Origin: an uncultured Rikenellaceae bacterium
GTDB taxonomy: Bacteria; Bacteroidota; Bacteroidia; Bacteroidales; Rikenellaceae
Reading direction: 5' to 3'
Length of the DNA stretch: 26,763 bases
Assembly (NCBI GenBank): GCA_949284665.1
Contig: CASDWR010000077.1
Location: 1 to 26,763 of the forward strand
Within the stretch, counting starts at the first letter, position 1. Every line of letters begins with the position of its first letter. This document shows positions 5,838 through 24,390 of the stretch, one piece after another. The notes under the pieces were generated by a model. The model did not search any database, was not told the origin of the DNA, and saw only the letters and a list, made by a program, of their open reading frames with translations. The translations under genes were made by a program, and so were the position numbers.

Positions 5838-7262
5838 TCAGAACTTGCCGTCCTTGTTAGCCTCTTCCACGCTTTGGTAGAGAGCCGTAGGATATTTCCC
5901 GCTGAAACAGGCCAGACACAACTCGTTCCGTCCGGCGGCCGCCGCAAAGAGGGCCTCTTGTGACAAAAACCGCAACGAATCGGCTCCGATCATCTTCTGC
6001 ACCTGATCCAACGTATGGTGTGCACACAACAACTCCTCATAGGTGGAGATATCCACACCGTAAAAACAAGGATGCGTAATCGGGGGACTGGCTATCCTCA
6101 CATGCACCTCCGTTGCCCCGGCCTCCTTGAGCAACCGTACGATTCTGCGTGAGGTAGTTCCACGCACCACCGAATCGTCGATCAACACCACCCGTTTGCC
6201 GTTGACGATACTGCGTACCGCCGACAACTTCATGCGGACTCCCTTTTCCCGGAGGCTCTGCGACGGTTGGATAAAAGTCCGTCCGATATATTTGTTTTTG
6301 ATCAATCCCATTTCATACGGAATCCCACTCTCTTCGCTGTAACCCATGGCAGCACTCAGACTCGAGTCGGGCACACCGATCACGATATCGGCTTCGGCCG
6401 GACTCTCCCGATAGAGCAACCGTCCGGTTTCCTTGCGGAAAGCATGGACATTCCGTCCCTCTATATCGCTGTCGGGGCGTGCGAAGTAAATATACTCCAT
6501 CGCACACATGTGGTAACGTTTGAACTGGGAGTAATCGGTGCTTCGGAGTCCGTGATGGTCGATCGTCACCACCTCTCCGGGCAAGACATCGCGTACGAAT
6601 TCAGCTCCGATCGTATCGAAAGCACATGTCTCGCTGCTCACCACCCATCCGCCGTTGAGCCTGCCGATCGAAAGCGGTCGCAATCCGTACTTGTCCCGAC
6701 AGACATAAATCCGATTCGCCGTCATGATAAGAAAGGCAAAGGCTCCCTCTATCATGTTCAACGCATCGACAATAGCATGTATCCGATGGCGGTTATCGGT
6801 CTCTTTTTTGATCAAATGGGCCAGAATTTCGCTGTCGGAGGTGGAATGGAAAAGACTGCCCTTGTTCTCCAAATAACGTATCAGTTGTTTGGAATTGACC
6901 AAATTGCCATTATGAGCCAATGCGAAGTCTCCCGTATTGTGATGGAAAACAAAAGGCTGTACATTCATCAGACCTCCGCCGCCTGCGGTAGAATAACGGA
7001 CATGACCGATCGCCATCTCTCCTTTCAGGGATGCCAGATTGCTTTCCTTGAAAACCTCGGTCACGAGGCCCTCTCCCTTCACGTGATTGAAACGACCGCC
7101 TTCGTCCACGCACACGATACCGCATCCTTCCTGTCCGCGATGCTGCAAAGCGTGCAAGGCGTAATAGGTCAACGTTGCGGCATCGTGCACACCGTAAATA
7201 CCAAATACCCCGCACTCTTCATGCAAGCCCCTAATATCATACAATTCCTGCATATGTGTCAC
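5838..7262 (-). CDS. purF: Amidophosphoribosyltransferase (glutamine PRPP amidotransferase)
   Basis: PurF makes phosphoribosylamine from PRPP and glutamine, the committed step of purine synthesis. The protein has 474 residues. The N-terminal nucleophile glutaminase starts at Cys17 (EECGVFGIYG), so a short propeptide must be removed as in the Bacillus enzyme. Other glutaminase residues are in HVRYSTAG and AHNGNLVN. The C-terminal half is a phosphoribosyltransferase with the PRPP loop VVLIDDSVVRGTTS at 358-371. Cys253, Cys399, Cys449 and Cys452 match the four cysteines of the iron-sulfur type of PurF. An in-frame ATG at 7253 is an alternative start. It lies 180 bases after purC. Confidence 0.97.
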   Translation of the reverse strand: MTHMQELYDIRGLHEECGVFGIYGVHDAATLTYYALHALQHRGQEGCGIVCVDEGGRFNHVKGEGLVTEVFKESNLASLKGEMAIGHVRYSTAGGGGLMNVQPFVFHHNTGDFALAHNGNLVNSKQLIRYLENKGSLFHSTSDSEILAHLIKKETDNRHRIHAIVDALNMIEGAFAFLIMTANRIYVCRDKYGLRPLSIGRLNGGWVVSSETCAFDTIGAEFVRDVLPGEVVTIDHHGLRSTDYSQFKRYHMCAMEYIYFARPDSDIEGRNVHAFRKETGRLLYRESPAEADIVIGVPDSSLSAAMGYSEESGIPYEMGLIKNKYIGRTFIQPSQSLREKGVRMKLSAVRSIVNGKRVVLIDDSVVRGTTSRRIVRLLKEAGATEVHVRIASPPITHPCFYGVDISTYEELLCAHHTLDQVQKMIGADSLRFLSQEALFAAAAGRNELCLACFSGKYPTALYQSVEEANKDGKF

Positions 7263-8274: not shown

Positions 8275-11200
8275 TCATTCGGACTTTCTGAAATAGTTCA
8301 CTGCATTAGTGAAAATTCCCTGTTCCTTGTTCCCGGATATGTTTTTGTATAGGTTGGACTCGTAACGCTCCGTATGTCCCATCTTCCCGAGTATTTGTCC
8401 GTCGTTGCTGACGATTCCTTCGATGGCATAAAGCGACCCGTTCGGATTATATGGTGCTTCGGCCGTGGCATGCCCGTCGGGATCGGCATATTGAAAAGCC
8501 ACCTGCCCGTTCGCAAACAACTCCTCGGCCAGTTCAGGGCTCACCATGAATTTACCCTCACCGTGACTGACGGCAATACTGTGGCATTCACCGGCTTCGA
8601 AGCCCGAAAGCCACGGCGAAGCAAGACTTGCCACCCGCGTGGTAACAATTTGGGAGACATGACGATTGATGTCATTCCGGAAAAGGGTGGGCGATGCTTG
8701 CGTCACCGTACCCAACCGTCCGTATGGGAGAAGTCCCGATTTGACCAATGCCTGAAAACCGTTGCATATGCCCAATATCAATCCCCCCCGATCGATCAGG
8801 GCGTGTATCTCGTCCGCTACACCTTCGTTGTTCAATACGTTGGCGATGAACTTGCCGCTTCCGTCAGGTTCGTCACCTGCCGAAAAACCTCCGCTGAGTA
8901 CAAAAATATGACATTCGCGCAACAATCGTTTCATCTCATCGATCGAACGGAAAATATCATCGCTGTCGAGATTACGGAATACGGAAGTCGTTATCCGTGC
9001 CCCAGCTCTCCGGAAAGCTTTGGCCGTATCGTAGTCGCAATTGGTTCCGGGGAATACGGGGAGGTATGCTATCGGCTCACGGACCGCCTCGCCCGGATAT
9101 ACAAATGTACGTTGCAGGGCTTTCCGTTCGACTGCCATTGCACAGTTCTTCCCTCGATCGGGATAAACGGTTGCAAAACGACGCGTATTGACTTCGTACA
9201 GTTCATCGATCGCCAACCGGACCCCATTTATTGTCAGTGCATCGTCGTCCACAGTCGCTCCAAGTCGTTCGGCTCTCGGGAAATCGAGTGCTTTCCGACT
9301 TTCAACCACTATCGATCCGTATCCGTAATCGAACAGCGTCGACTCATCGACCGTTGCCTCGATACCAATCCGGTTTCCGAATGCCATCTTGGCAAGAGCC
9401 TCTCCGGCACCGCCGAAACCGAGAGCATAGGCGGCCACGACATCTCCCCGCTCGATCGATTCGCTGACAAATGAGAAATTCTCTTTCAACTGCTCCGTAT
9501 CGGGCATATACCCTTCCCGGGGCGTATGCCGGATCAAATATACAGAATGTCCGGCCTCCTTGAAATCGGTTCCGATTACCCGATTTGCATCGACTGTCGT
9601 GATACCGAACGCCATCAACATGGGCGGAACGTTGATATTTTGGAACGTGCCGCTCATGGAGTCTTTCCCACCGATGGACGGCAGCCCCAGTTCGACTTGC
9701 ATGCGCAAAGCACCGAGCAAAGCTGCCAACGGTTTACCCCATGTGGTACGGTCATGCGTCATCCGTTCGAAATACTCCTGATAGGAGTAACGCATCCGGT
9801 CGTAACGGGCTCCGGCAGCAACCACCTTCGCCGCAGCTTCCACCACGGCATAAGCTGCTCCGTGATACGGACTCCACGAAGCGATGAACGGATTGTAGCC
9901 GAACGCCATGATACTGGCCGTGTCGGTGTATCCCTCACCGACAGGCAGCTTCTGTACCGAAACCTGTGTTTCAGAACGCTGGGTTTTGCCCCCGAAAGGC
10001 ATCAATACGGTCGACGCTCCGATCGTGGAATCGAACATCTCGATCAACCCTTTTTGCGACAACACATTATCATCGTTCAAATTGGCTTTGAAACGGTCGG
10101 CAAACGCCGCTCCTTCGGGATATCGGACAAAAGGTTCGCATGCTTCCACGGCTCCGATCGTGGCTTCCGCATAATGCTTCGCACCGGCACTGTCGATAAA
10201 ACGGCGGGCCAGGTCGACAACCATCTTGCCGTGATTGAACATGCGCAACCGTTTGGTATCGGTCACGTCGGCCACATAAGTCACCTCCACGTTCTCTTCA
10301 CGGCAATAGCGCGAAAAACGCTCCCGCTCTTTCGCCTCGATCACCACGGCCATTCGCTCCTGCGATTCACTGATCGCCAACTCCGTAGAGTTCAATCCGC
10401 TGTATTTGGTCGGTACACGGTCGAGATAGATATCCAACCCGTCGGTCAATTCGCCGATGGCCACACTCACTCCTCCGGCACCGAAATCGTTCGATTTTTT
10501 AATCAACCTGGTTACCTCGGGACGACGGAAAAGTCGTTCGAGTTTTCGCTCTTCAGGAGCATTGCCCTTCTGAACTTCGCTGCCGCACTCCTCAAGCGAC
10601 TTGGCGTTGTGCTCCTTGGACGAACCGGTTGCTCCGCCGATGCCGTCCCGTCCCGTACGGCCACCCAACAGCAGTACCACATCTCCAGGTACAGGGGTTT
10701 CACGTCGTACGTTTTCCGCCTTTACGGCCCCGACTACGGCTCCCACTTCGAGTCGTTTGGCCACATAATCCGGGTGATAAATCTCCCGCACATGCGTTGT
10801 TGCCAATCCGATCTGGTTCCCGTAGCTTGAATATCCCGAGGCAGCCTTCAGACTGATCACACGTTGTGGCAATTTCCCTTCGAGCGTCTCGGAAACCGGC
10901 TGCCAGATATCGCCGGCACCCGTTACCCGCATGGCCTGATAAACATAGCTCCGCCCCGACAATGGGTCACGAATCGCTCCCCCCAAACAAGTCGAAGCTC
11001 CACCAAAAGGTTCAATCTCGGTAGGATGGTTGTGCGTTTCGTTCTTGAACTGCAACAACCATCGTTGCGGTTTGTTGTCCACATCCACCGTTATGAAAAT
11101 GCTGCAAGCGTTGTTCTCTTCGCTGATCTCCATGTCATCCAACAATCCGCGCTTTTTCAAATAACGCGCCCCGATCGTGGCAAGGTCCATCAAACAGACG

Positions 11201-11994
11201 CTTTTGTCTTCCCGGCCCAACTCCCGGCGGATATTATAATAGAGATCAAGGGACTCTTCGAGTTCGGCCTTCATGAACGATTCGTCGATGGAGATATCGG
11301 TCAACTCGGTCGTAAAGGTCGTATGGCGACAATGATCGCTCCAGTAGGTATCCAGAATGCGCAGTTCCGTTTCGTAAGGATCTCGTCCTTCGGCCCGGAA
11401 ATAGGTCACTACCTCCCGCAAATCATCTGCATTCATTGCTAAACCGTACTCTTTGCAGAATATTTCGAGACGATCTTCATTCATCGACCGAAACCCTTCG
11501 AGTACCGGGACAGGTTTCACGGGTGCATGCTCCGTATCGCTCAATACCGAGAGATCTTTCTCTCTCGACTCAACGGCATTGATATAGTATTTTCGGATAC
11601 GAATCAACTCCTCATCCGTCACCTGATCGTCGAAAATCAAAAGCCTCGAACTTTTGATATTTACCGTTGCCGTCGGATCGATCAATCGCACACAGTCGAT
11701 CGCCGAACTGGCCCGTTGATCGAATTGGCCCGGAAGATACTCCACAGCCAGGTATTTCCTGTCCGTCAGATCGCATGCGTCCGTCACCTCATCCGTAACT
11801 ACCTCACCGAATACGCGGTAACGACTCCGCTCCAGCAATTCAGCCGTAAATCCGAAAAGGTCGTACACATTCAAAAGCCTCAACGTTTTCAGGTTCAAAT
11901 TCAAATTTCCGTTCAACTCACGCATGAGACTCTCCGCCTCCACCCTGAAACGGGGACGCTTTTCCACATAAATCCGATAATTCTGGCTCTCCAT
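8275..11994 (-). CDS. purL: Phosphoribosylformylglycinamidine synthase, single-chain large form (FGAM synthetase)
   Basis: PurL converts FGAR to FGAM with ATP and glutamine (step 4). At 1239 residues it is the single-chain form that fuses the PurS-like, synthetase and glutaminase parts found as PurS/PurL/PurQ in other bacteria. An N-terminal PurS-like region (about 1-150) leads into a linker with DTYWSDHCRHTTF, then two AIRS-like halves with KNETHNHPTEIEPFGGA and the later GGKDSMSG. The C-terminal class I glutaminase, from about residue 980, has its nucleophile Cys1077 in GICNGFQAL and His1207/Glu1209 in MGHTERY. So this glutaminase is intact, unlike that of CarA in this window. It lies 185 bases after purK. 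Confidence 0.97.
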   Translation of the reverse strand: MESQNYRIYVEKRPRFRVEAESLMRELNGNLNLNLKTLRLLNVYDLFGFTAELLERSRYRVFGEVVTDEVTDACDLTDRKYLAVEYLPGQFDQRASSAIDCVRLIDPTATVNIKSSRLLIFDDQVTDEELIRIRKYYINAVESREKDLSVLSDTEHAPVKPVPVLEGFRSMNEDRLEIFCKEYGLAMNADDLREVVTYFRAEGRDPYETELRILDTYWSDHCRHTTFTTELTDISIDESFMKAELEESLDLYYNIRRELGREDKSVCLMDLATIGARYLKKRGLLDDMEISEENNACSIFITVDVDNKPQRWLLQFKNETHNHPTEIEPFGGASTCLGGAIRDPLSGRSYVYQAMRVTGAGDIWQPVSETLEGKLPQRVISLKAASGYSSYGNQIGLATTHVREIYHPDYVAKRLEVGAVVGAVKAENVRRETPVPGDVVLLLGGRTGRDGIGGATGSSKEHNAKSLEECGSEVQKGNAPEERKLERLFRRPEVTRLIKKSNDFGAGGVSVAIGELTDGLDIYLDRVPTKYSGLNSTELAISESQERMAVVIEAKERERFSRYCREENVEVTYVADVTDTKRLRMFNHGKMVVDLARRFIDSAGAKHYAEATIGAVEACEPFVRYPEGAAFADRFKANLNDDNVLSQKGLIEMFDSTIGASTVLMPFGGKTQRSETQVSVQKLPVGEGYTDTASIMAFGYNPFIASWSPYHGAAYAVVEAAAKVVAAGARYDRMRYSYQEYFERMTHDRTTWGKPLAALLGALRMQVELGLPSIGGKDSMSGTFQNINVPPMLMAFGITTVDANRVIGTDFKEAGHSVYLIRHTPREGYMPDTEQLKENFSFVSESIERGDVVAAYALGFGGAGEALAKMAFGNRIGIEATVDESTLFDYGYGSIVVESRKALDFPRAERLGATVDDDALTINGVRLAIDELYEVNTRRFATVYPDRGKNCAMAVERKALQRTFVYPGEAVREPIAYLPVFPGTNCDYDTAKAFRRAGARITTSVFRNLDSDDIFRSIDEMKRLLRECHIFVLSGGFSAGDEPDGSGKFIANVLNNEGVADEIHALIDRGGLILGICNGFQALVKSGLLPYGRLGTVTQASPTLFRNDINRHVSQIVTTRVASLASPWLSGFEAGECHSIAVSHGEGKFMVSPELAEELFANGQVAFQYADPDGHATAEAPYNPNGSLYAIEGIVSNDGQILGKMGHTERYESNLYKNISGNKEQGIFTNAVNYFRKSE

Positions 11995-14124: not shown

Positions 14125-15210
14125 TTATTTTGCCTTTGACTCGCAATAAGCGCATCGGTAGATCCCATGTTCCTGATCCACGAGGCGAAAAAGCTGCGGC
14201 ACATCTTCCGTGGCGGAGATACACCGCTTGTTCGAACAGATCATCCGGTCCACAATCAATCCGTTCCGAGATATCACCTCTTTGTCAGAACCGCCCTTGC
14301 TCCATTCGAGCAATTTGCATATCAATGCCATACGAACGAACTTACCGTTCTCCACCTGACGGAAATAGGCTGCCCGCGGATCGGCGTCAACCTCTTGTGT
14401 AATCTCATTTACACGCGGAAGCGGATGGAGGATCACCATATCCTTTTTAGCCGTACGCAGTTTGGCCGGATCAAGGATAAAACTCTCCTTGAGCCGATCG
14501 AATTCATCCTCATCCAGGAAACGTTCCTTTTGTACACGTGTCATGTAGAGAATATCCAGCTCGTGCATCACGCTTTCCATTGAATTCACTTCCCGATACG
14601 GGATTCCGTTCTTCTCGCACACCTCGTATTTCATGTAACCCGGCAAACGCAATTCATCGGGGGCAATGAGAATAACCCGTATCCCATGGTATCGCGATAA
14701 AGCCTTGATGAGCGAATGCACCGTTCGTCCGAACTTCAAATCTCCACAAAACCCGATGGTCAGATTATCGAAACGTCCCTTTTCCCGCTTGATGGTCAAC
14801 AGGTCGGTCAGTGTCTGGGTGGGATGGGCATGACTGCCGTCTCCGGCATTGATTACCGGAATCTTCGCATACTGTGCAGCCACCAGCGGAGCTCCCTCCT
14901 TGAAATGGCGCATGGCGATGATATCCGCAAAACATCCGATGACACGTACCGTATCGGCCACGGTCTCACCTTTGCTCACCGAAGAGCTGTTGGCATCCGA
15001 AAAACCGATTACATTCCCGCCGAGTTCCATCATGGCCGCCGTAAAACTGAGTCGGGTGCGGGTACTGGGCTCATAAAAAAGCGTAGCCAGTTGTTTGCCC
15101 TTGCATACTTCGCTGTACTTCTCGCGGTGCGCGATGATGTCGAGGGCCAGATCGATGATCTCTTCGGTCTCCTGAACCGTCAGATCGGTAGGGTCGATTA
15201 AATGACGCAT
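14125..15210 (-). CDS. pyrB: Aspartate carbamoyltransferase with fused PyrI-type zinc domain
   Basis: PyrB condenses carbamoyl phosphate with aspartate. The catalytic chain occupies residues 1 to about 305: [12 protein letters not shown] at 45-56 (carbamoyl phosphate site), Lys80 in [17 protein letters not shown] at 128-138, and HPLPR at 262-266. The protein continues to 361 residues. The extra tail matches the zinc domain of the regulatory chain PyrI: Cys325-X4-Cys330 (CSNKRCIS) and Cys353-X2-Cys356 (CAYC). The nucleotide-binding N-terminal domain of PyrI, which binds CTP and ATP in E. coli, is absent, and no separate pyrI is present. It is the last pyrimidine gene, 149 bases after pyrE. Confidence 0.95.
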
Positions 15211-15359: not shown

Positions 15360-15998
15360 CTATTTTCGAATCCAACTCTCGTCCGATGGATTGTTGCGGA
15401 AAGCGATCAGCCGGGCCACATCTTCCTGTCGAATATAGCCCTCCGCAGCAGCAACCTCGACCAGGGTATCCAGATTCGAAAGGCTGTAATTGACCACTCC
15501 AGCCTCCTGCAATCGATCGAGTCCTTTGCGCATGCCGTAGGTAAAAATACTGGCTACTCCCAATACCTCTCCCCCAGCCTCTCGCAAGGCATCCACCACA
15601 TCGACACAACTACCGGCCGTTGAGATCAAATCTTCAATAACAACCACTTTCTCTCCCTTTTCAAGCCGACCTTCGATCCTGTTGGCGCGGCCATGATCCT
15701 TGGCTCCACTACGGACATATCCCATTGGCAAACCGAGAATCGTTGCCGTAATGGCCGCATGGGCAATTCCAGCCGTACTCGTACCCATTAACACCTGACA
15801 CCCGGGAAAATGTTCGCGCACGATTTCAGCCAGACCTTCCTCTACGCGGTTTCTTATCTCTGGAGCACTAAGTGTCAAGCGGTTATCGCAATAAATAGGA
15901 CTCTTGATGCCGCTTGCCCATGTAAAAGGTTCTTCGGGCCTCAAAAAGACCGCCCCGATCGAGAGCAGGTCTTTGGCGATTTGAATCGATTTCTCCAT
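15360..15998 (-). CDS. pyrE: Orotate phosphoribosyltransferase
   Basis: PyrE couples orotate with PRPP to give OMP (step 5 of UMP synthesis). The 212-residue protein shows the N-terminal FTWASGIKSPIYCDNR (residues 25-40), the RSGAKDHGR loop that closes over the active site, and the PRPP-binding signature VVVIEDLISTAGSC around 128-141. The length is typical of the bacterial form that occurs in multigene pyr operons. It lies 219 bases after pyrF, in a gap with one small hairpin, and 149 bases before pyrB. Confidence 0.96.
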   Translation of the reverse strand: MEKSIQIAKDLLSIGAVFLRPEEPFTWASGIKSPIYCDNRLTLSAPEIRNRVEEGLAEIVREHFPGCQVLMGTSTAGIAHAAITATILGLPMGYVRSGAKDHGRANRIEGRLEKGEKVVVIEDLISTAGSCVDVVDALREAGGEVLGVASIFTYGMRKGLDRLQEAGVVNYSLSNLDTLVEVAAAEGYIRQEDVARLIAFRNNPSDESWIRK

Positions 15999-16217: not shown

Positions 16218-16925
16218 CTACATCGTCCCCACAAAATCAACCACACAACGCCTGTATGCGGCAACCGGATCGGCAGCAGCTGTTACGGGTCTCCCCACAA
16301 CAATAAAATCGGATCCGATTTCACGTGCACGTGCCGGTGTAGTGATTCGTACCTGATCCCCGGCGTCGCCATCGGCAAAACGTATCCCCGGCGTAACGGT
16401 CAAAAAATCCCGGCCACAAGCCTTTTTCACCATGCCCGCCTCCAAAGGCGAACATACCACGCCGTCCAATCCGGCCTCCTTCGTATTGAGTGCATAACGG
16501 ACAATGGTCTCATCCATCGTGGCATTAACCAACAACTCGCGCTGCATCCTTTCCTGACTGGTAGAGGTGAGTTGCGTTACCGCAATCAACAAAGGTCTCG
16601 TACCATCCGGACGAGTCAACCCTTCGCGTGCTGCACGCATCATTTCGATGGTCCCCGCAGCATGCACGTTGCACATATCCACATCGAGTCGCGAGAGAAC
16701 CGCCATTGCCTTGCGCACGGTATTGGGAATATCGTGGAGTTTCAGATCGAGAAAAATCGGATGACCCCGACGTTTGATCTCCCGTACGATCGCCGGACCC
16801 TCGGCGTAATAGAGCTCCATGCCGATCTTTACGAACGGTTTCTCGGATTCGAAACGGTCCAGAAAACGGAACGTCTCTGCTGCACTGGCAAAATCGCAGG
16901 CAATGATCACATCTCTCTTTTTCAT
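16218..16925 (-). CDS. pyrF: Orotidine 5'-phosphate decarboxylase
   Basis: PyrF decarboxylates OMP to UMP, the final step of the pathway. The 235-residue protein has the catalytic [11 protein letters not shown] motif at 60-70, with Asp60, Lys62 and Asp65 numbered as in the Bacillus enzyme. ACDF at 9-12 and the C-terminal VTPGIRF and VVGRPVTAA phosphate-binding segments complete the barrel. This is the short subfamily 1 form; Bacteroides species usually carry the longer subfamily 2 enzyme of about 270 residues, so the type is of interest. The start at 16925 gives the family N-terminus. It follows pyrD by 137 bases. Confidence 0.96.
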
Positions 16926-17062: not shown

Positions 17063-18010
17063 CTACCGGTGGGCAATACCGATTATATCGGAAATTTTCC
17101 CGATGCAGCGTTTTTCCATCTCTTCCGGTAGTGTTTCAATAATCTCCTTGCAGGCATAGGGATTTTTCAGATTGGCCGAGCCGACCTGTACGGCTGTAGC
17201 TCCCGCCATCATCATTTCGATCACGTCGGAAGCAGTCGAAACCCCCCCGCACCCCATGACCGGAATCCGGCATGCAGCACTCACCTGCCAAACCATACGC
17301 AAAGCTACCGGGAAAACGGCAGGGCCTGAAAAGCCTCCCATCGCATTGGCGATCACCGGTCGCCTTCGATAAGTATCGATCCGCATCCCCAGCAAGGTGT
17401 TTATCAGACATATCCCATCAGCACCGGCCTCTTCACATGCTTGTGCGATGGTTACGATATCCGTCACATTGGGGCTCAATTTGATATAGACGGGTTTTGT
17501 GGTCACCGCCTTCACGGCCCGGGTCACCTCAGCGGCAGCCTCGGGCGAAGTTCCGAAACTCATTCCTCCGTGGCGGACATTCGGGCAACTGACATTCACT
17601 TCGATCAGCCCTACCTGTTCCTGACGATCGATTCTCTCGCAACAGTACGCATACTCTTCTACCGAAAACCCACTGATGTTGGCGATCACCGGTTTCTGAA
17701 AAAAACGCTTCAACCGGGGCAATTCCCTTTCGATTACGGCATCGATACCGGGATTCTGAAGTCCCACGGCGTTAATCATGCCGGACGTACATTCGGCGAT
17801 ACGTGGTGTGGTATTGCCGAACCTCGCTTCGCGAGTCGTCCCTTTTAATGAAAACGACCCCAAAATATTGATATCGTAAAAATCCTTGAACTCGAATCCG
17901 TATCCGAACGTACCGCTGGCAGGAATCACCGGGTTATCGAGCAACAAACCGCTGAGGTTCACGGACAGATCGGGTTTCCCAATCATTGTTTCGTTCTCTT
18001 TCGTCACCAT
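17063..18010 (-). CDS. pyrD: Dihydroorotate dehydrogenase, class 1B catalytic subunit
   Basis: PyrD oxidises dihydroorotate to orotate with FMN; the class 1B enzyme passes electrons to NAD through PyrK. With the start at 18010 it has 315 residues. The N-terminal PVIPASGTFGYG, INAVGLQNPG at 80-89, and the active-site cysteine Cys142 in VNVSCPNV mark class 1B. NAMGGFSGPA and the GCGGVSTASD and GATAVQVGSA phosphate-site loops follow. I chose the ATG at 18010 because a clear GGAGGA lies just upstream and the start overlaps the pyrK stop by seven bases; the frame is open further, to 18049, and an internal ATG lies at 17986. Confidence 0.95.
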   Translation of the reverse strand: MVTKENETMIGKPDLSVNLSGLLLDNPVIPASGTFGYGFEFKDFYDINILGSFSLKGTTREARFGNTTPRIAECTSGMINAVGLQNPGIDAVIERELPRLKRFFQKPVIANISGFSVEEYAYCCERIDRQEQVGLIEVNVSCPNVRHGGMSFGTSPEAAAEVTRAVKAVTTKPVYIKLSPNVTDIVTIAQACEEAGADGICLINTLLGMRIDTYRRRPVIANAMGGFSGPAVFPVALRMVWQVSAACRIPVMGCGGVSTASDVIEMMMAGATAVQVGSANLKNPYACKEIIETLPEEMEKRCIGKISDIIGIAHR

Positions 18011-18744
18011 ATGATCTCCTCCTTCATCAAAACGGGGCCCTCTTTGCAAAGCCTTTTATCTGCATATTTCGTATGGCAGCTGCACCCCATACAGGCACCG
18101 AAGCCACACCCCATCCGTTCTTCGAAACTGAGTTGTCCGTTGCAGTCGATCGTATCGCACAATGCCTTGAGCATCGGGATCGGACCGCAGGCGTAAAAGT
18201 AGTCGAAATCCATTCCTGACTCTCTTATCGCATCGGTCACAAAACCTTTCACTCCCGCCGAACCGTCGACAGTGGCTATTACGACCCGTGCTCCCAATGT
18301 CCGGAATTCGTCGGCATAAAAAATCTCGGAAGCCGTGTTGAATCCCAATACGACATTTACCGGCGTACCCTCGGTCAAAAACACCCGCGCCAGATTGTAG
18401 AGAGGAGGGACACCCACACCCCCACCGACCAACAGTGGACGAGCCGGTTCTTCAGCCGTACTGAATCCGTTTCCCAAACCCGTCAACAGATCGAGGATCG
18501 TCCCCGGACACATACGACTCATTTGTTCGGTTCCCGCTCCGACCACCTTGTAAACAAGTGTGATCGTTTCCCGGTCATAATCGCAAATCGAGATCGGGCG
18601 TCGCAGAAATCTCCCCTCCAACTCGATATTTACAAACTGACCGGGGGCACGAATGTACTGCGTATCTCCCTCTACCACCATGCGCCATACCGAGGCGGTC
18701 AACGGTTCATTCGATCGGATTTCGTATTTCCCTTTTTTATACAT
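18004..18744 (-). CDS. pyrK: Dihydroorotate dehydrogenase electron transfer subunit PyrK
   Basis: PyrK carries FAD and a [2Fe-2S] cluster and links PyrD to NAD+. The 246-residue protein has a ferredoxin-reductase-like fold: the FAD motif RRPISICD at 48-55, the NAD-binding GGGVGVPPLY at 107-116, and the C-terminal cluster cysteines Cys213, Cys218, Cys221 and Cys233 in GCGFGACMGC followed by RLC. It lies 48 bases after carB and overlaps pyrD, its partner subunit, which fits the need for equal amounts of both. Confidence 0.96.
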   Translation of the reverse strand: MYKKGKYEIRSNEPLTASVWRMVVEGDTQYIRAPGQFVNIELEGRFLRRPISICDYDRETITLVYKVVGAGTEQMSRMCPGTILDLLTGLGNGFSTAEEPARPLLVGGGVGVPPLYNLARVFLTEGTPVNVVLGFNTASEIFYADEFRTLGARVVIATVDGSAGVKGFVTDAIRESGMDFDYFYACGPIPMLKALCDTIDCNGQLSFEERMGCGFGACMGCSCHTKYADKRLCKEGPVLMKEEIIW

Positions 18745-18792: not shown

Positions 18793-21700
18793 CTATTCGG
18801 CATCGATGGTGGAAACGCCGAGTGTAATCTCTTCCAGCACATCCAGCAACACACGTACCGTTTCGAGTGCCGTGAAGATCGTCACATTGTTTTCTACCGC
18901 TGCCTGTCGTATTTCATAACCGTCGAGACGCGTATTGTGTTGATTGATGTCGATGGTGTTGATTACATAATTCACGTGTCCCCGACGCAAGGAGTCGATG
19001 ATCTCCGTACTTCCTTCACTCAATTTGTGAAGCAGACGGGTACGGATACCGTGCCGACGCAGGAAAGCTGCCGTCCCGGAAGTGGCTTCAATATTGAACC
19101 CCAAATCATAAAACCGCCGTACCAGCGGCAATGCACTCTCCTTATCCTTGTCGGCAATGGTCACAAAAATGGTTCCGTAATTGGCCACCGTCATCCCCGA
19201 CGACTGGAGAGCTTTGTACAAGGCTCTCGTAAGTTTGTTGTCGTAACCGATCGCCTCACCCGTCGATTTCATCTCGGGCGAGAGATAGGATTCCATCCCT
19301 CGAATCTTGGCAAACGAAAATGCCGGCACTTTCACGAACCAGCGGTTCTTCTCTTTCCCGTACACCTCCGTAAATCCCTGGCTTCGCAACGAGTGCCCCA
19401 AAATAACCTGTGTGGCGATATGGGCCATGGGGACTCCCGTCGACTTGGACAGGAAAGGAACCGTACGCGACGACCGTGGATTGACTTCGATTACATAGAC
19501 TTTCTCCTGCTGATCAACAATAAACTGGATGTTGTACAAACCTACGATTCCGATTTCCAGTCCCAATCGGACCGTATAGTCGAGAATGGTCTCCTTCACC
19601 TTTCCCCCGACGCTGAAGGTAGGATATACACTGATACTGTCTCCGGAGTGGATCCCCGTCTTCTCGACATGTTCCATAATACCGGGGACGAACACATCTT
19701 TCCCGTCACAAATGGCATCCACTTCCAACTCTTTACCCTGAATGTACTTATCCACCAGCACCGGCTGATCGACATTGATCTCAACCGCTGTTTGGAGATA
19801 GCGTCTGAGGGCCTCTTCATTGCTCACAATCTGCATCGCCCGACCACCGAGCACATAACTCGGACGTACCAATACCGGATAACCGATCCGCTGTGCAGCT
19901 CTTACTCCCGCCTCGATATCGGTCACCGCTTCGGCCTGTGGTTGAGGAATACCCAATTGTGTCATGATTCGTTCGAAGCATCCGCGATCTTCGGCGTTGC
20001 GGATGGCCTGTACGTCGGTCCCGATAATCGGAACTCCGAGTCGATGAAGCGGTTCCGCCAGATTGATTGCGGTCTGACCGCCCAACGATACCACGATACC
20101 CAACGGCTTCTCCAGACGAACTACATTCATTACATCCTCCACTGTAAGCGGTTCGAAATAGAGCTTGTCGCTGGTCGTATAATCGGTCGAAACGGTCTCG
20201 GGATTGTTGTTGATAATGATCGCCTCATACCCCGCCTCACGGATCGACCAGATCGCATGTACCGTAGAGTAGTCGAATTCGACCCCCTGGCCGATTCGGA
20301 TCGGACCCGAACCGAGCACCACGATTTTTTCCCGATCGCTGACTAACGATTCATTTTCTTCCTCGTAGGTCGAATAGAAGTAGGGGACATACGTACTGAA
20401 CCCACCTGCGCATGAATCGATCATCTTGTATACCGGGAAAATTCCGAACTGTTCCCGCATCCGATAAATGTCCTGCTCGTCCATACCCCATACCTGACCG
20501 ATGTACTTGTCGCTGAATCCCATCTTTTTCGCTTCACGCAACGTTTCGGGATCCCGGGGCGACGATGCCACCTGTTTCTCGAACTCTACAATATTGCGGA
20601 ACTTTTCCAAGAAAAGCATGTCGATTTTCGTACGGCTGTATATCAGGGTCAGATCCACCCCATTGCGGATCAATTGTGCAATGGCGTAAAGACGATCGTC
20701 CGTCCCTTCGCGGATGTAATCGAGCATCAGGTCATCGCTCATGGCATCGAACTTCCGGTGGTGTATGTGACAGACTCCCGTTTCCAACGAGCGTACCGCC
20801 TTCAACAGACTCTCTTCGAAAGTACGTCCGATACTCATCACCTCCCCCGTCGCCTTCATCTGGGTCCCCAACTTGTTGGAGGCGTCACTGAACTTGTCAA
20901 AGGGGAAACGGGCAATTTTCGTCACTACATAGTCGATCGCAGGTTCGAAACTGGCCGGGAAATCCCCGATCCGGATTTCGTCGAGTGTCAATCCCACCGC
21001 CACCTTGGCACTTACCCGGGCAATCGGATACCCACTTGCTTTCGATGCCAATGCCGAAGAGCGTGACACTCGCGGGTTGACCTCAATCAGATAGTATCGG
21101 AACGAAAGCGGGTCGAGCGCAAACTGAATGTTGCACCCGCCTTCGATCTTGAGAGCACGGATTATCTTTAAGGCGCTGTTGCGCAACAACTGATACTCTC
21201 TGTCCGTAAGGGTCTGGCTCGGAGCCACTACAATCGAATCGCCCGTATGGATTCCCACCGGATCCACATTTTCCATACTGCAAATGGTGATGGCCGTGTC
21301 GTTGCTGTCGCGCATCACCTCGAACTCGATCTCCTTATATCCCTTGATACTCTTCTCCACCAATACCTGATGGGCCGGAGAAAGCATCAATGCGTTGCGC
21401 ATGAGTTCACCAAACTCCTCTTCGTTATCTGCGAAACCACCGCCCGTACCGCCCAACGTAAAGGCCGGGCGCAATACCACCGGATAACCGATTTTTGCTG
21501 CGGCTTCGAATCCTTCTTTCATGCTGCAGGCCACGAGCGACGGCAATACCGGTTCTCCCAACTCTTCGCACAGCTCCTTGAACAATTCTCGATCCTCAGC
21601 CCGCTCGATACTCTCGAACGATGTCCCCAGAATCTCCACCTGACACTCCTCGAGGATTCCTTTCCGGGCAAGCTGAACCGCCAGATTCAACCCTGTCTGG

Positions 21701-21975
21701 CCACCGAGACCGGGAACAATGGCATCGGGCCGCTCGTAACGGATAATCTTGGCCACATATTCCAAAGTCAACGGTTCCATATACACCTTGTCGGCAATAT
21801 GGGTATCTGTCATGATCGTTGCCGGGTTGGAATTTGCAAGGATCACTTCGTAACCCTCTTCTTTCAAGGCGAGACAGGCCTGTGTCCCCGCATAGTCAAA
21901 CTCGGCCGCCTGGCCGATTACGATCGGTCCCGAGCCGATCACCATTACTTTCTTTATATCGGTTCTCTTAGGCAT
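18793..21975 (-). CDS. carB: Carbamoyl phosphate synthetase, large subunit
   Basis: CarB makes carbamoyl phosphate from bicarbonate, ammonia and two ATP. The 1060 residues show the duplicated ATP-grasp architecture: the first half opens with VMVIGSGPIVIGQAAEFDYAG and carries PGLGGQTGLNLA, the second half repeats this with VVLGSGPIRIGQGVEFDYS and VSLGGQTAINLA. The last 130 or so residues form the methylglyoxal-synthase-like allosteric domain (NIEATSGTAAFL, then VNYVINT), where UMP and ornithine act in relatives. It overlaps carA by eight bases. Because CarA lacks its cysteine nucleophile, CarB may use free ammonia here. Confidence 0.97.
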   Translation of the reverse strand: MPKRTDIKKVMVIGSGPIVIGQAAEFDYAGTQACLALKEEGYEVILANSNPATIMTDTHIADKVYMEPLTLEYVAKIIRYERPDAIVPGLGGQTGLNLAVQLARKGILEECQVEILGTSFESIERAEDRELFKELCEELGEPVLPSLVACSMKEGFEAAAKIGYPVVLRPAFTLGGTGGGFADNEEEFGELMRNALMLSPAHQVLVEKSIKGYKEIEFEVMRDSNDTAITICSMENVDPVGIHTGDSIVVAPSQTLTDREYQLLRNSALKIIRALKIEGGCNIQFALDPLSFRYYLIEVNPRVSRSSALASKASGYPIARVSAKVAVGLTLDEIRIGDFPASFEPAIDYVVTKIARFPFDKFSDASNKLGTQMKATGEVMSIGRTFEESLLKAVRSLETGVCHIHHRKFDAMSDDLMLDYIREGTDDRLYAIAQLIRNGVDLTLIYSRTKIDMLFLEKFRNIVEFEKQVASSPRDPETLREAKKMGFSDKYIGQVWGMDEQDIYRMREQFGIFPVYKMIDSCAGGFSTYVPYFYSTYEEENESLVSDREKIVVLGSGPIRIGQGVEFDYSTVHAIWSIREAGYEAIIINNNPETVSTDYTTSDKLYFEPLTVEDVMNVVRLEKPLGIVVSLGGQTAINLAEPLHRLGVPIIGTDVQAIRNAEDRGCFERIMTQLGIPQPQAEAVTDIEAGVRAAQRIGYPVLVRPSYVLGGRAMQIVSNEEALRRYLQTAVEINVDQPVLVDKYIQGKELEVDAICDGKDVFVPGIMEHVEKTGIHSGDSISVYPTFSVGGKVKETILDYTVRLGLEIGIVGLYNIQFIVDQQEKVYVIEVNPRSSRTVPFLSKSTGVPMAHIATQVILGHSLRSQGFTEVYGKEKNRWFVKVPAFSFAKIRGMESYLSPEMKSTGEAIGYDNKLTRALYKALQSSGMTVANYGTIFVTIADKDKESALPLVRRFYDLGFNIEATSGTAAFLRRHGIRTRLLHKLSEGSTEIIDSLRRGHVNYVINTIDINQHNTRLDGYEIRQAAVENNVTIFTALETVRVLLDVLEEITLGVSTIDAE

Positions 21976-23056
21976 GTGCGTGTTCCTCCATCATTTTAAT
22001 GAACTTGTCGAATAAATAACCCGTATCCTGCGGACCCGGGGCGCTCTCGGGATGGAACTGGACCGCACAAATCCGATCCGCAACACATTCCACACCTTCG
22101 GCCGTACCATCGAAAAGATCGAGATGGGTAAGCGTAAGCCCTGTCCCCACCAACGAATCGGAATCAACGGCATAGCGGTGATTCTGCACGGCCATTTCAA
22201 TTTTGCCGGTCCGGAGATCTCTTACGGGACGGCTACCGCAACAACCGAACTTCATCTTATATACTTTTGCCCCGTAAGCGAGTGCGATGATCTGATATCC
22301 GAGTGATAGGCCGAAGATAGGCAACCGGCCTTTCAACCGACGAACCGCCTCGATCGCCTCGACCGCGCACTCCGGATTCCCCGGGCCACTGGAAACGAGC
22401 AATCCGTCCGGACGAAAAGAGAGAATCTCTTCCGTAGTCGCATCATAGGGAACTACCGTTACATTACACCCTTTGGCATTGAGACGACGAATGACGTTGT
22501 ACTTGATTCCGCAATCGACCGCCACTACATCGAAACGGTGATTCGGTGTACGCGACATCCAACGTTTCCGACAACTCACGCGTGAAACCGCATCTGTCGG
22601 CACCGGTGTTTCCGCAATGATTTTCAAAGCATCATCCCGGGATTTGTCTACATCGGCTATGAGTACCCGCTGGCTCCCTTCATCGCGGATGATCCGAGTC
22701 AGCTGACGGGTATCGATCCCGCTGATGGCCGGAATTCCGCACTCTTCCAATACCTCGCCGAGTGTTTTGGTATAACGAAAATTGCTCGGTGTGTCGTTGT
22801 ATTCGCGAACCACCAATCCGCCGAGCGACGGAAATTTGGTTTCATAGTCTTCGTCCGTGATTCCGTAGTTGCCGATCAGCGGGTAGGTCATCACCACCAT
22901 CTGATCGGTATAGGCGGGATCGGAAACGATCTCCTGATAACCGACCATGGAAGTATTGAAAACCAGCTCGTTTACCGCTTCCCGATCTGCTCCGAAACCA
23001 TAGCCGTAAAATTCCAGTCCGTTTTCCAGGACGATTTTTTTCGTAAAAGGTTTCAT
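21968..23056 (-). CDS. carA: Carbamoyl phosphate synthetase small subunit with degenerate glutaminase site
   Basis: CarA normally hydrolyses glutamine and passes ammonia to CarB. The 362 residues and overall layout are normal: the N-terminal CarA-specific domain (LVFNTSMVGYQEIVSDPAYTDQ spans 31-52) and a C-terminal class I glutaminase fold. The nucleophile motif GICLGHQ reads GLSLGYQ, so the catalytic Cys is Ser251 (codon TCA at 22304-22306), and the His after it is Tyr254. The next conserved block KFGHRGANHPV is shortened to KFGCCGSRPV (269-278), and Arg294 replaces Gly in QNHGY. His335 and Glu337 of the triad remain. The glutaminase is probably dead while the subunit is kept. Overlaps pyrC (ATGA) and carB. 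Confidence 0.95.
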   Translation of the reverse strand: MKPFTKKIVLENGLEFYGYGFGADREAVNELVFNTSMVGYQEIVSDPAYTDQMVVMTYPLIGNYGITDEDYETKFPSLGGLVVREYNDTPSNFRYTKTLGEVLEECGIPAISGIDTRQLTRIIRDEGSQRVLIADVDKSRDDALKIIAETPVPTDAVSRVSCRKRWMSRTPNHRFDVVAVDCGIKYNVIRRLNAKGCNVTVVPYDATTEEILSFRPDGLLVSSGPGNPECAVEAIEAVRRLKGRLPIFGLSLGYQIIALAYGAKVYKMKFGCCGSRPVRDLRTGKIEMAVQNHRYAVDSDSLVGTGLTLTHLDLFDGTAEGVECVADRICAVQFHPESAPGPQDTGYLFDKFIKMMEEHAHA

Positions 23057-24390
23057 ATCATTCGTTTCAATTTATCATCAAACTCTTCCGCCGCATACAC
23101 CGTCCGCCCGTTCACGAGCGTCAACACACTGCATCCTTGTACCTGCATGCCGGCAAATGGCGTACTGCGGCCCTTCGACCGGAACGTATCCGGATCAATC
23201 ACATATTTCCGATTGAAATCGAGGACTGTCACATCGGCCGATTCCCCCGACTGCAAGGCCCCGCCGATTCCGAACAAACATCTCGGAGCTGCACTCATCA
23301 ATTCCACCATACGTTCTTCGGGAATAAACCCTTTCATCACCAACCCGGTATAAATTATCGGAACCGCCGTTTCCAAACCCACGATTCCCATGGCACTGCC
23401 AGCAAGTCCACGCGACTTTTCGGCTGCCGTATGAGGAGCATGGTCGGTCGCGATCACATCGATCGTACCGTCAACTACCCCTGCAATCAAGGCCTCCCGA
23501 TCCGCACGACTACGGATCGGAGGATTCATTTTGAAACGTCCGTCCTCCTGCAAATCTTCATCGCAAAGAATCAGGTAATGGGGAGCCGTCTCGCATGTTA
23601 CGCCAATCCCTGCCGCTTTAGCTTTCCGGATAATCTCCACGCTCTCCTTGGTCGAAACATGACACACGTGATAACGACATCCGGTCCGGGCTGCCAGTTC
23701 GACGTCGCGGGCAACCTGTCGCCATTCGCTTTCCGAACATATCCCACGATGACCGTGTTCCCGAGCGTACACACCGTCGTGAATATAGCCCCCGCGCAAC
23801 AATTCGTTCTCTTCACAATGGGCCACAATCGGTTTGCCGCACCGTGCCGCACGCCGCATCGCCTCCTCCATCAGAGCGGCATCCTGTACTCCTCGGCCGT
23901 CATCCGAAAATCCGACTACCGAAGCGCACAGTGCCTCGAAATCGACCAACTCTCCGTATCCTTTTTGCCCCCGCGTAATACAACCATACGGAAGCACCTT
24001 TACGACAGCTTCCCGGTGAATCTTTTCCAACTCCACGCCCAGGGATTCCGGGGAGTCGGGAGCAGGATCGAGATTCGGCATTGCACAAACCGTTGTAAAA
24101 CCTCCGTGCGCTGCAGCCTCCGTCCCCGTACGAATCGTCTCTTTGGCCGGGAAACCGGGTTCGCGCAAATGCACATGCACATCAACCAGTCCGGGTATCA
24201 CACGACAACCCCGAACGTCGAATACCTCGTCTTCCTCTCGGGGGAAAATCCCCGGAGCCACCGTTTCGATTCTCTCTCCGACAATCGACACGTCGGCATC
24301 GATGAATTTCCCATCCCGATAAACCGTGCCTCCTTTCAATACCTTGCGCTTACGCTCCCTCTCCTTCCCGCCGATCGACGACGCAGACAA
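23053..24390 (-). CDS. pyrC: Dihydroorotase, class I
   Basis: PyrC cyclises carbamoyl aspartate to dihydroorotate. From the TTG at 24390 it has 445 residues. Metal ligands are visible: His72 and His74 in DVHVHLREPG, His191 in HCEEN, His244 in CHVST, and Asp316 in ATDHAPH; Asp163 lies in FSDDGRG. The family N-terminus should begin near VLKGGTVY (residues 17-24). No ATG lies between the upstream terminator and this point, so the start must be non-ATG: TTG at 24390, which adds a basic KERERKRK stretch, or TTG at 24339. It overlaps carA by four bases and is the first structural gene of the pyrimidine operon. Confidence 0.92.
   Translation of the reverse strand: MSASSIGGKERERKRKVLKGGTVYRDGKFIDADVSIVGERIETVAPGIFPREEDEVFDVRGCRVIPGLVDVHVHLREPGFPAKETIRTGTEAAAHGGFTTVCAMPNLDPAPDSPESLGVELEKIHREAVVKVLPYGCITRGQKGYGELVDFEALCASVVGFSDDGRGVQDAALMEEAMRRAARCGKPIVAHCEENELLRGGYIHDGVYAREHGHRGICSESEWRQVARDVELAARTGCRYHVCHVSTKESVEIIRKAKAAGIGVTCETAPHYLILCDEDLQEDGRFKMNPPIRSRADREALIAGVVDGTIDVIATDHAPHTAAEKSRGLAGSAMGIVGLETAVPIIYTGLVMKGFIPEERMVELMSAAPRCLFGIGGALQSGESADVTVLDFNRKYVIDPDTFRSKGRSTPFAGMQVQGCSVLTLVNGRTVYAAEEFDDKLKRMI

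Follow-up and report, generated by a model that had tools for sequence, protein, structure and literature searches.

Repeated loss of the CarA glutaminase cysteine in the Rikenellaceae, and a probable shift of pyrimidine synthesis to free ammonia

The catalytic cysteine of CarA, the small subunit of carbamoyl phosphate synthetase (CPS), has disappeared repeatedly from the pyrimidine operons of the Rikenellaceae, and the genes that lost it are under purifying selection. This recurrent, selected loss across a family is our main finding, and it extends beyond the one gene of the window, as we call the whole stretch of 26,763 nucleotides that was analysed. The source genome of the window (G000; 1.89 Mb, 76.6% complete) groups with the Rikenellaceae (Alistipes relatives). 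The reading that we favor, with a probability of roughly 0.84, is that the pyr-operon CPS is a CarAB whose CarA is unable to split glutamine, that its CarB uses free ammonia for pyrimidines, that arginine has its own glutamine-type CarAB, and that this conversion was repeated within the Rikenellaceae. If true, gut bacteria would have departed naturally, and more than once, from the use of glutamine as the bacterial CPS donor.

The accessible text of one review names glutamine as the donor for all bacterial CPSases and describes Cys-269 and His-353 as essential for glutamine hydrolysis in E. coli (PMC6245113). The available part of a 2018 review calls glutamine the preferred and physiologically relevant donor, and the available text of another source assigns the bacterial CPS, with its glutaminase subunit, to CPS II (PMC6022934). 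In Table 1 of PMC3376133, the portion accessible to us, which deals with gene presence only, the "no glutaminase" class is empty for guaA (730 genomes), pyrG (800) and carAB (600). Our search of the literature, for which most subscription papers were out of reach, turned up no description of a bacterial CarA without the Cys.

The genes of the window form a purine-pyrimidine biosynthesis block, its pyr operon intact, that comprises folD, purD, purH, purN, purM, purF, purC, purL, purK, pyrB, pyrE, pyrF, pyrD, pyrK, carB, carA and pyrC (table 1); an Rfam scan of it gave no match. Residues 319-360 of its PyrB match the aspartate carbamoyltransferase regulatory chain.

Table 1. Positions in the window of the genes and CarA sites discussed in the text
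Feature	Position	Strand	Description
carA	21968..23056	minus	362 aa; CPS small subunit, glutaminase predicted dead
Ser251 codon TCA	22304..22306	minus	site where E. coli CarA has its nucleophile, Cys269
KFGCCGSRPV	22223..22252	minus	shortened loop, 10 residues vs 11
QNHRY	22172..22186	minus	glutamine-pocket strand with Arg294
His335-Pro-Glu337	22046..22054	minus	remaining triad residues, intact (FHPESAPGP)
PGP	22031..22039	minus	E. coli 358-360 (our numbering); intact in window CarA
carB	18793..21975	minus	1060 aa, CPS large subunit; 8-base overlap with carA
pyrC	23053..24390	minus	dihydroorotase; 4-base overlap with carA
pyrK	18004..18744	minus	dihydroorotate dehydrogenase electron transfer subunit
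pyrD	17063..18049	minus	dihydroorotate dehydrogenase
pyrF	16218..16925	minus	OMP decarboxylase
pyrE	15360..15998	minus	orotate phosphoribosyltransferase
pyrB	14125..15210	minus	aspartate carbamoyltransferase + C-terminal piece of regulatory chain
purL	8275..11994	minus	glutaminase Cys intact (GICNGFQ); control
purF	5838..7262	minus	glutaminase Cys intact (ECGVFGIYG); control

The nucleophile motif G-x-C-x-G-x-Q is broken in the window CarA, which reads GLSLGYQ, and the serine codon, TCA, lies two base changes away from TGC or TGT. The first-pass annotation had described just this replacement of Cys by Ser, and had reported the other triad residues and carB as intact; both observations hold, since His335 and Glu337 are present and CarB is full length and conserved, differing at 12 of the 593 columns that are ≥98% constant in 63 Cys-type CarB. 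It was equally correct that PurF and PurL have kept their own glutaminase cysteines (in ECGVFGIYG and GICNGFQ) and that the KFG..HPV block of CarA is shortened, to KFGCCGSRPV. The one-residue shortening occurs in 32 of 110 Cys-less rows and in none of the 56 Cys rows and 50 outgroup rows; confined in this way, it is a lineage feature that accompanies Cys loss only. The description of an Arg for the Gly of QNHGY was right about the Arg, an unusual residue for this site, and probably wrong about the starting residue: the Cys-bearing CarA of the family have Ser (48/56) or Asn (8/56) there, and the ancestral residue was, on this sequence comparison, probably not Gly.

TIGR01368, the NCBIfam model of "glutamine-hydrolyzing" CarA, still matches the window CarA (408.9 bits; cut-off 307.35), and the CPSase_sm_chain (PF00988, 160.5 bits) and class I GATase (PF00117, 147.7 bits) domains are both found. 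Its predicted fold has a mean pLDDT of 82.2 (<50 at residues 59-80 and 82-95) and E. coli CarA as its best match; the closest solved structure, by sequence as well as by fold, is 1C30, the E. coli C269S mutant. The exact Ser form of the window has a single MAG (76.6% complete) as its source, its protein cluster being one member sequence on two contigs.

A comparison with the CarA of relatives, a check proposed by the first-pass annotation, indicates that the loss in the window is not a one-off. PF00988 was matched in 227 of the 268 family genomes searched, and in the 166 where the pyr-operon CarA could be read the Cys is present in 56 and missing from 110. Its replacements are Gly (38), Ser (33), Asp (32), Ala (3), Asn (2) and Glu (2), and the triad His is gone as well from 66 of the 110. 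The complete Cys-His-Glu triad is kept in all 56 Cys rows and in all 50 outgroup rows (36 Bacillota, 13 other Bacteroidota and 1 unplaced, drawn from the 80 best loci). These counts leave aside all Bacteroidales-type CarA, the truncated L285 (G161, Gly), the duplicates L100 and L263-L268, the partial L286 and the partial matches in G195 and G214. Within the source genus, 5 of 22 genomes (G009, G012, G013, G016 and G017) have a CarA with 62-65% identity to that of the window, each with Gly at the Cys site and each as the single carA. When an Asp-type CarA was used as the query against a protein database, 111 of the 120 matches listed (the best of 7999 scored) had Asp and 9 had Gly, and the organism names given among those listed were Alistipes sp. 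MAGs. NCBI names label the Asp-type relatives "glutamine-hydrolyzing", as the NCBI model does the window CarA, a label that can mislead.

Several observations lie beside these counts. No carA match was obtained in 13 of the 22 genomes of the source genus, seven of them 98-99% complete, and these organisms are possible pyrimidine auxotrophs. The triad is kept in most of the Bacteroidales-type CarA rows read, several rows of genus g46 being degenerate. Three such CarA from the source genus (L311, L312 and L313, in G005, G007 and G011) retain the Cys and have QID in place of HPE, which from the sequence would be another route to a dead glutaminase; in G007 and G011 this gene is the sole carA, with argG ~4 kb away. 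A further Bacteroidales-type CarA (L291, G172:C51) reads GLGLGNQ and FIPEMNC; the genome that carries it is 8% contaminated.

The Cys was lost more than once. With the motif columns masked, a FastTree phylogeny of 216 rows divides the Cys-less rows into 8 maximal groups and requires 6 Fitch changes, and parsimony on an IQ-TREE phylogeny of 103 chosen rows gives at least 5 changes; a single origin of all the Cys-less rows was rejected (p-AU 0.000311). The IQ-TREE topology makes L119-L121, which are Cys rows, the neighbors of the window CarA, though the support is weak (55/87), and constraining it to group with the Gly rows of the same genus brought no rejection (p-AU 0.194). The window CarA and the Gly species of its genus have the one-residue loop deletion in common, and they may go back to one shared loss of the Cys.

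Selection has been maintained on these genes. From pairs with dS of 0.15-2.0, the median pairwise dN/dS of CarA was 0.101 in the Asp group, 0.102 in the Ser/Ala group, 0.167 in a Gly group, 0.115 in a mixed group and 0.087 in the same-genus Gly group, five Cys-less groups that take in 99 of the 110 rows and leave out 11; the value for the Cys group was 0.172. The N-terminal part of the window CarA, set against three Cys relatives, has a dN of 0.12-0.15 at a dS of 1.2-1.3. The partner subunit is also preserved: once rows of <1000 aa or running off their locus had been dropped, the pyr-type CarB was full length and conserved in 28 of 28 Cys-less cases, with 2 to 29 of the 593 near-constant columns changed. 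The low dN/dS and the full-length, conserved CarB together argue that the Cys-less CarA are not pseudogenes. Recurrent CarB changes, candidates for compensation, occur at columns constant in the Cys rows, but their count is biased by that very choice of columns and we base no conclusion on it.

A single PF00988 match, and thus no other carA, was found in 103 of the 110 Cys-less genomes (36 of the single-copy genomes are ≥90% complete and ≤5% contaminated); the exceptions are G000, G172, G173, G196, G207, G236 and G238. In G000 itself a second carA-carB pair lies on contigs C205 and C252; this CarA2 has GICLGNQ and HPE intact, reads QNHGF, and shares just 39% identity with the window CarA. Its neighborhood is that of arginine synthesis: C205 has, in order, argH, an ArgE/DapE-type deacylase, argB, argD, argC, argG, a protein that matched no family and that we read as GNAT-like, carB2 and carA2, and at the end of C252 lie argR and the opening residues of carA2. 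The NCBIfam cut-offs are passed by argH, argB, argC and argR; argG falls just short of its own (266.5 vs 268.2 bits), and the scores of argD and the deacylase are also below theirs. There is no exact overlap between the ends of C205 and C252, which lie inside carA2 (L348 and L349), but 25 nt agree, by eye, with one difference; both parts probably belong to a single gene, and the near-match suggests that strain variation broke the assembly. Contamination is an unlikely source of this second carA, for the tetranucleotide composition of C205 and C252 correlates with that of the window at r 0.92 and 0.91, as against ≤0.48 between the window and six other genomes (a 4 to 12 kb stretch of each), a match that a contaminant of like composition would also produce.

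The first-pass annotation had supposed that the Cys-less CPS feeds arginine synthesis too, and had named a second carA with an intact Cys as evidence against its whole reading. Such a gene exists, and it sits in an argR-linked arginine cluster. The arginine part of the claim is thereby left unsupported for G000, while the mechanism proposed for pyrimidines stands as likely, given the recurrent loss, the purifying selection and the usual lack of any other carA; the second gene limits the claim to pyrimidines and does not overturn it, because 103 of the 110 Cys-less genomes have no such gene. As predicted from these sequences, G000 would take free ammonia for its pyrimidines and glutamine for its arginine. 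The Gly-type genomes G196, G207, G236 and G238 similarly have one dead and one Cys-type CarA each, the latter lying, in the first three, 4.2 kb from argG on the same contig. In the Cys-less genomes as a whole, argG (scored at E <1e-30) is present in 60 of 110 and absent from 50, including all 32 Asp rows; where argG accompanies a single carA, that one enzyme probably supplies arginine as well.

In the mechanism that we propose, the window CarA would have lost glutamine splitting and been kept as a structural, perhaps regulatory, subunit, and CarB would make carbamoyl phosphate for pyrimidines from free ammonia, bicarbonate and ATP, the arginine of the source organism being served by the separate glutamine-type CarAB. 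The Rikenellaceae would have made the same conversion several times, the probable reason being an abundance of free ammonia in their habitat. The E. coli CPS requires very high ammonia, according to the accessible text of PMC6245113, and our reading therefore requires either that the Km for ammonia be lower here or that the cell be very rich in ammonia.

Could glutamine still be the donor, with another glutaminase, or the CarA2 of the arginine cluster, passing ammonia to the pyr-operon CarB? The intact Cys of CarA2 in G000 means that it could in principle share the load, and a Cys-type second carA is also available in four of the Gly-type genomes. Such an arrangement is nevertheless unlikely: the large majority of the Cys-less genomes have one carA only, CarA2 has diverged far from the window CarA, and the Cys-less CarA are themselves under purifying selection. 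That last point also bears on the idea of a recent strain defect, in which the pyr CPS is decaying and the arginine CPS covers for it. The presence of a second CarAB in G000 and the restriction of the window Ser to one genome are what such a defect would leave, but CarA and CarB are both full length, the five same-genus genomes with Gly have no second carA to cover for them, and dN/dS is low in five Cys-less groups, as is dN relative to dS in the N-terminal part of the window CarA; we regard this idea as very unlikely.

It might also be supposed that Ser251 acts as an alternative nucleophile, or that Cys272 or Cys273 of the loop substitutes for the lost residue, His335 and Glu337 being kept and two cysteines being at hand. 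This we consider extremely unlikely: in relatives the site reads Gly, Asp, Ala, Asn or Glu, the same-genus Gly rows are without a Cys in the loop, and the E. coli Cys269 Ser mutant has no activity with glutamine.

Other ammonia-related genes of the family were also surveyed. Of the 268 genomes, 27 have an AmtB above the cut-off: none of the 110 Cys-less genomes, 3 of the 56 Cys genomes and 24 genomes outside these two groups, with 0 of 23 in the source genus and only four in g39 (Alistipes relatives). As AmtB is missing from 53 of the 56 Cys genomes too, its absence does not single out the genomes that lost the Cys; it is the wider of the two losses and fits an ammonia-rich habitat, and AmtB may have been lost before the Cys. 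A short GMP synthetase (~435-440 aa), whose GATase is without the Cys-bearing part, is found in 77 of the 268 Rikenellaceae genomes. It occurs in 60 of 68 labelled non-Cys non-Asp genomes and in 0 of 28 labelled Asp and 0 of 48 labelled Cys genomes (Fisher 2.5e-15, kinship ignored). The short or full label is given by match strength to a short-GuaA query, open-frame length being checked for listed genomes only; 22 of the 166 genomes have no GuaA label, contig ends truncate some of the short frames, and the one in G092 has an internal stop. No guaA was found in G000 (76.6% complete). The short GuaA is not a Rikenellaceae novelty, the same 435-aa form being present in Parabacteroides gordonii (P0189), where it is named glutamine-hydrolysing, and the short form also in other Bacteroidales; one of 435 aa lies beside a guaB-like gene at L405:436-1743 (G129).

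PyrG was found in 25 of 30 chosen genomes (no match in G062, G080, G116, G142 and G150), with the glutaminase Cys or His lost in 6 and both kept in 19, including the window genome. In the CTP synthetases L370, L372, L374, L375, L377 and L378, Cys is replaced by Ser or Gly, or His by Asn. Within CarA, the Gly-Pro of PGP is intact in all 56 Cys rows, all 50 outgroup rows and 40 of the 110 Cys-less rows, and altered in 69 of the latter, one further row being cut short. The E. coli G359F mutant (1M6V) sits at this site, and we take that mutation to open the tunnel to solvent. It is a tentative proposal, at somewhat less than even odds, that nucleotide amination as a whole moved from glutamine to free ammonia in part of one gut bacterial family, with the CarA glutaminase killed several times, GuaA cut down, PyrG losing Cys or His in some lineages, AmtB gone, and the tunnel-mouth Gly-Pro (E. 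coli 359-360) changed in most Cys-less CarA, perhaps as a new ammonia entrance.

In the Rikenellaceae the change that produced the vertebrate CPS1 would be available as several independent replicates, which would let one ask what further adjustments (ammonia entry, Km, regulation) are needed once a glutaminase is shut off. The accessible text of PMC4655335 describes human CPS1 as having Ser294 at the Cys position and accepting ammonia; CPS1 has kept a glutaminase-like domain with Ser for Cys and has ammonia as its donor, as is predicted for the enzyme of the window, and the window CarA can be aligned with the human enzyme over residues 2-357. Vertebrate CPS1, for which N-acetylglutamate is an essential activator, is, however, a single fused polypeptide of ~1500 residues, whereas carA and carB of the window are separate, overlapping genes in a pyrimidine operon, and in other Rikenellaceae lineages the Cys has given way to Gly, Asp, Ala, Asn or Glu. 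With the E. coli-type CarAB (CPS II) the window enzyme shares domains, operon partner and fold, but its CarA is without the catalytic Cys and its glutamine use is predicted to be lost. The single-domain, ammonia-dependent NadE is likewise a bacterial amidating enzyme that works without a glutaminase (PMC3376133, accessible text), but it has no glutaminase whatever, whereas the window CPS retains a dead subunit. Independent shifts from glutamine towards ammonia are also described, in the available text of PMC7657897, for the CPS III of Alcolapia fish and the CPS I of frogs; there, unlike in the Rikenellaceae, the triad was kept and the glutamine-binding residues changed.
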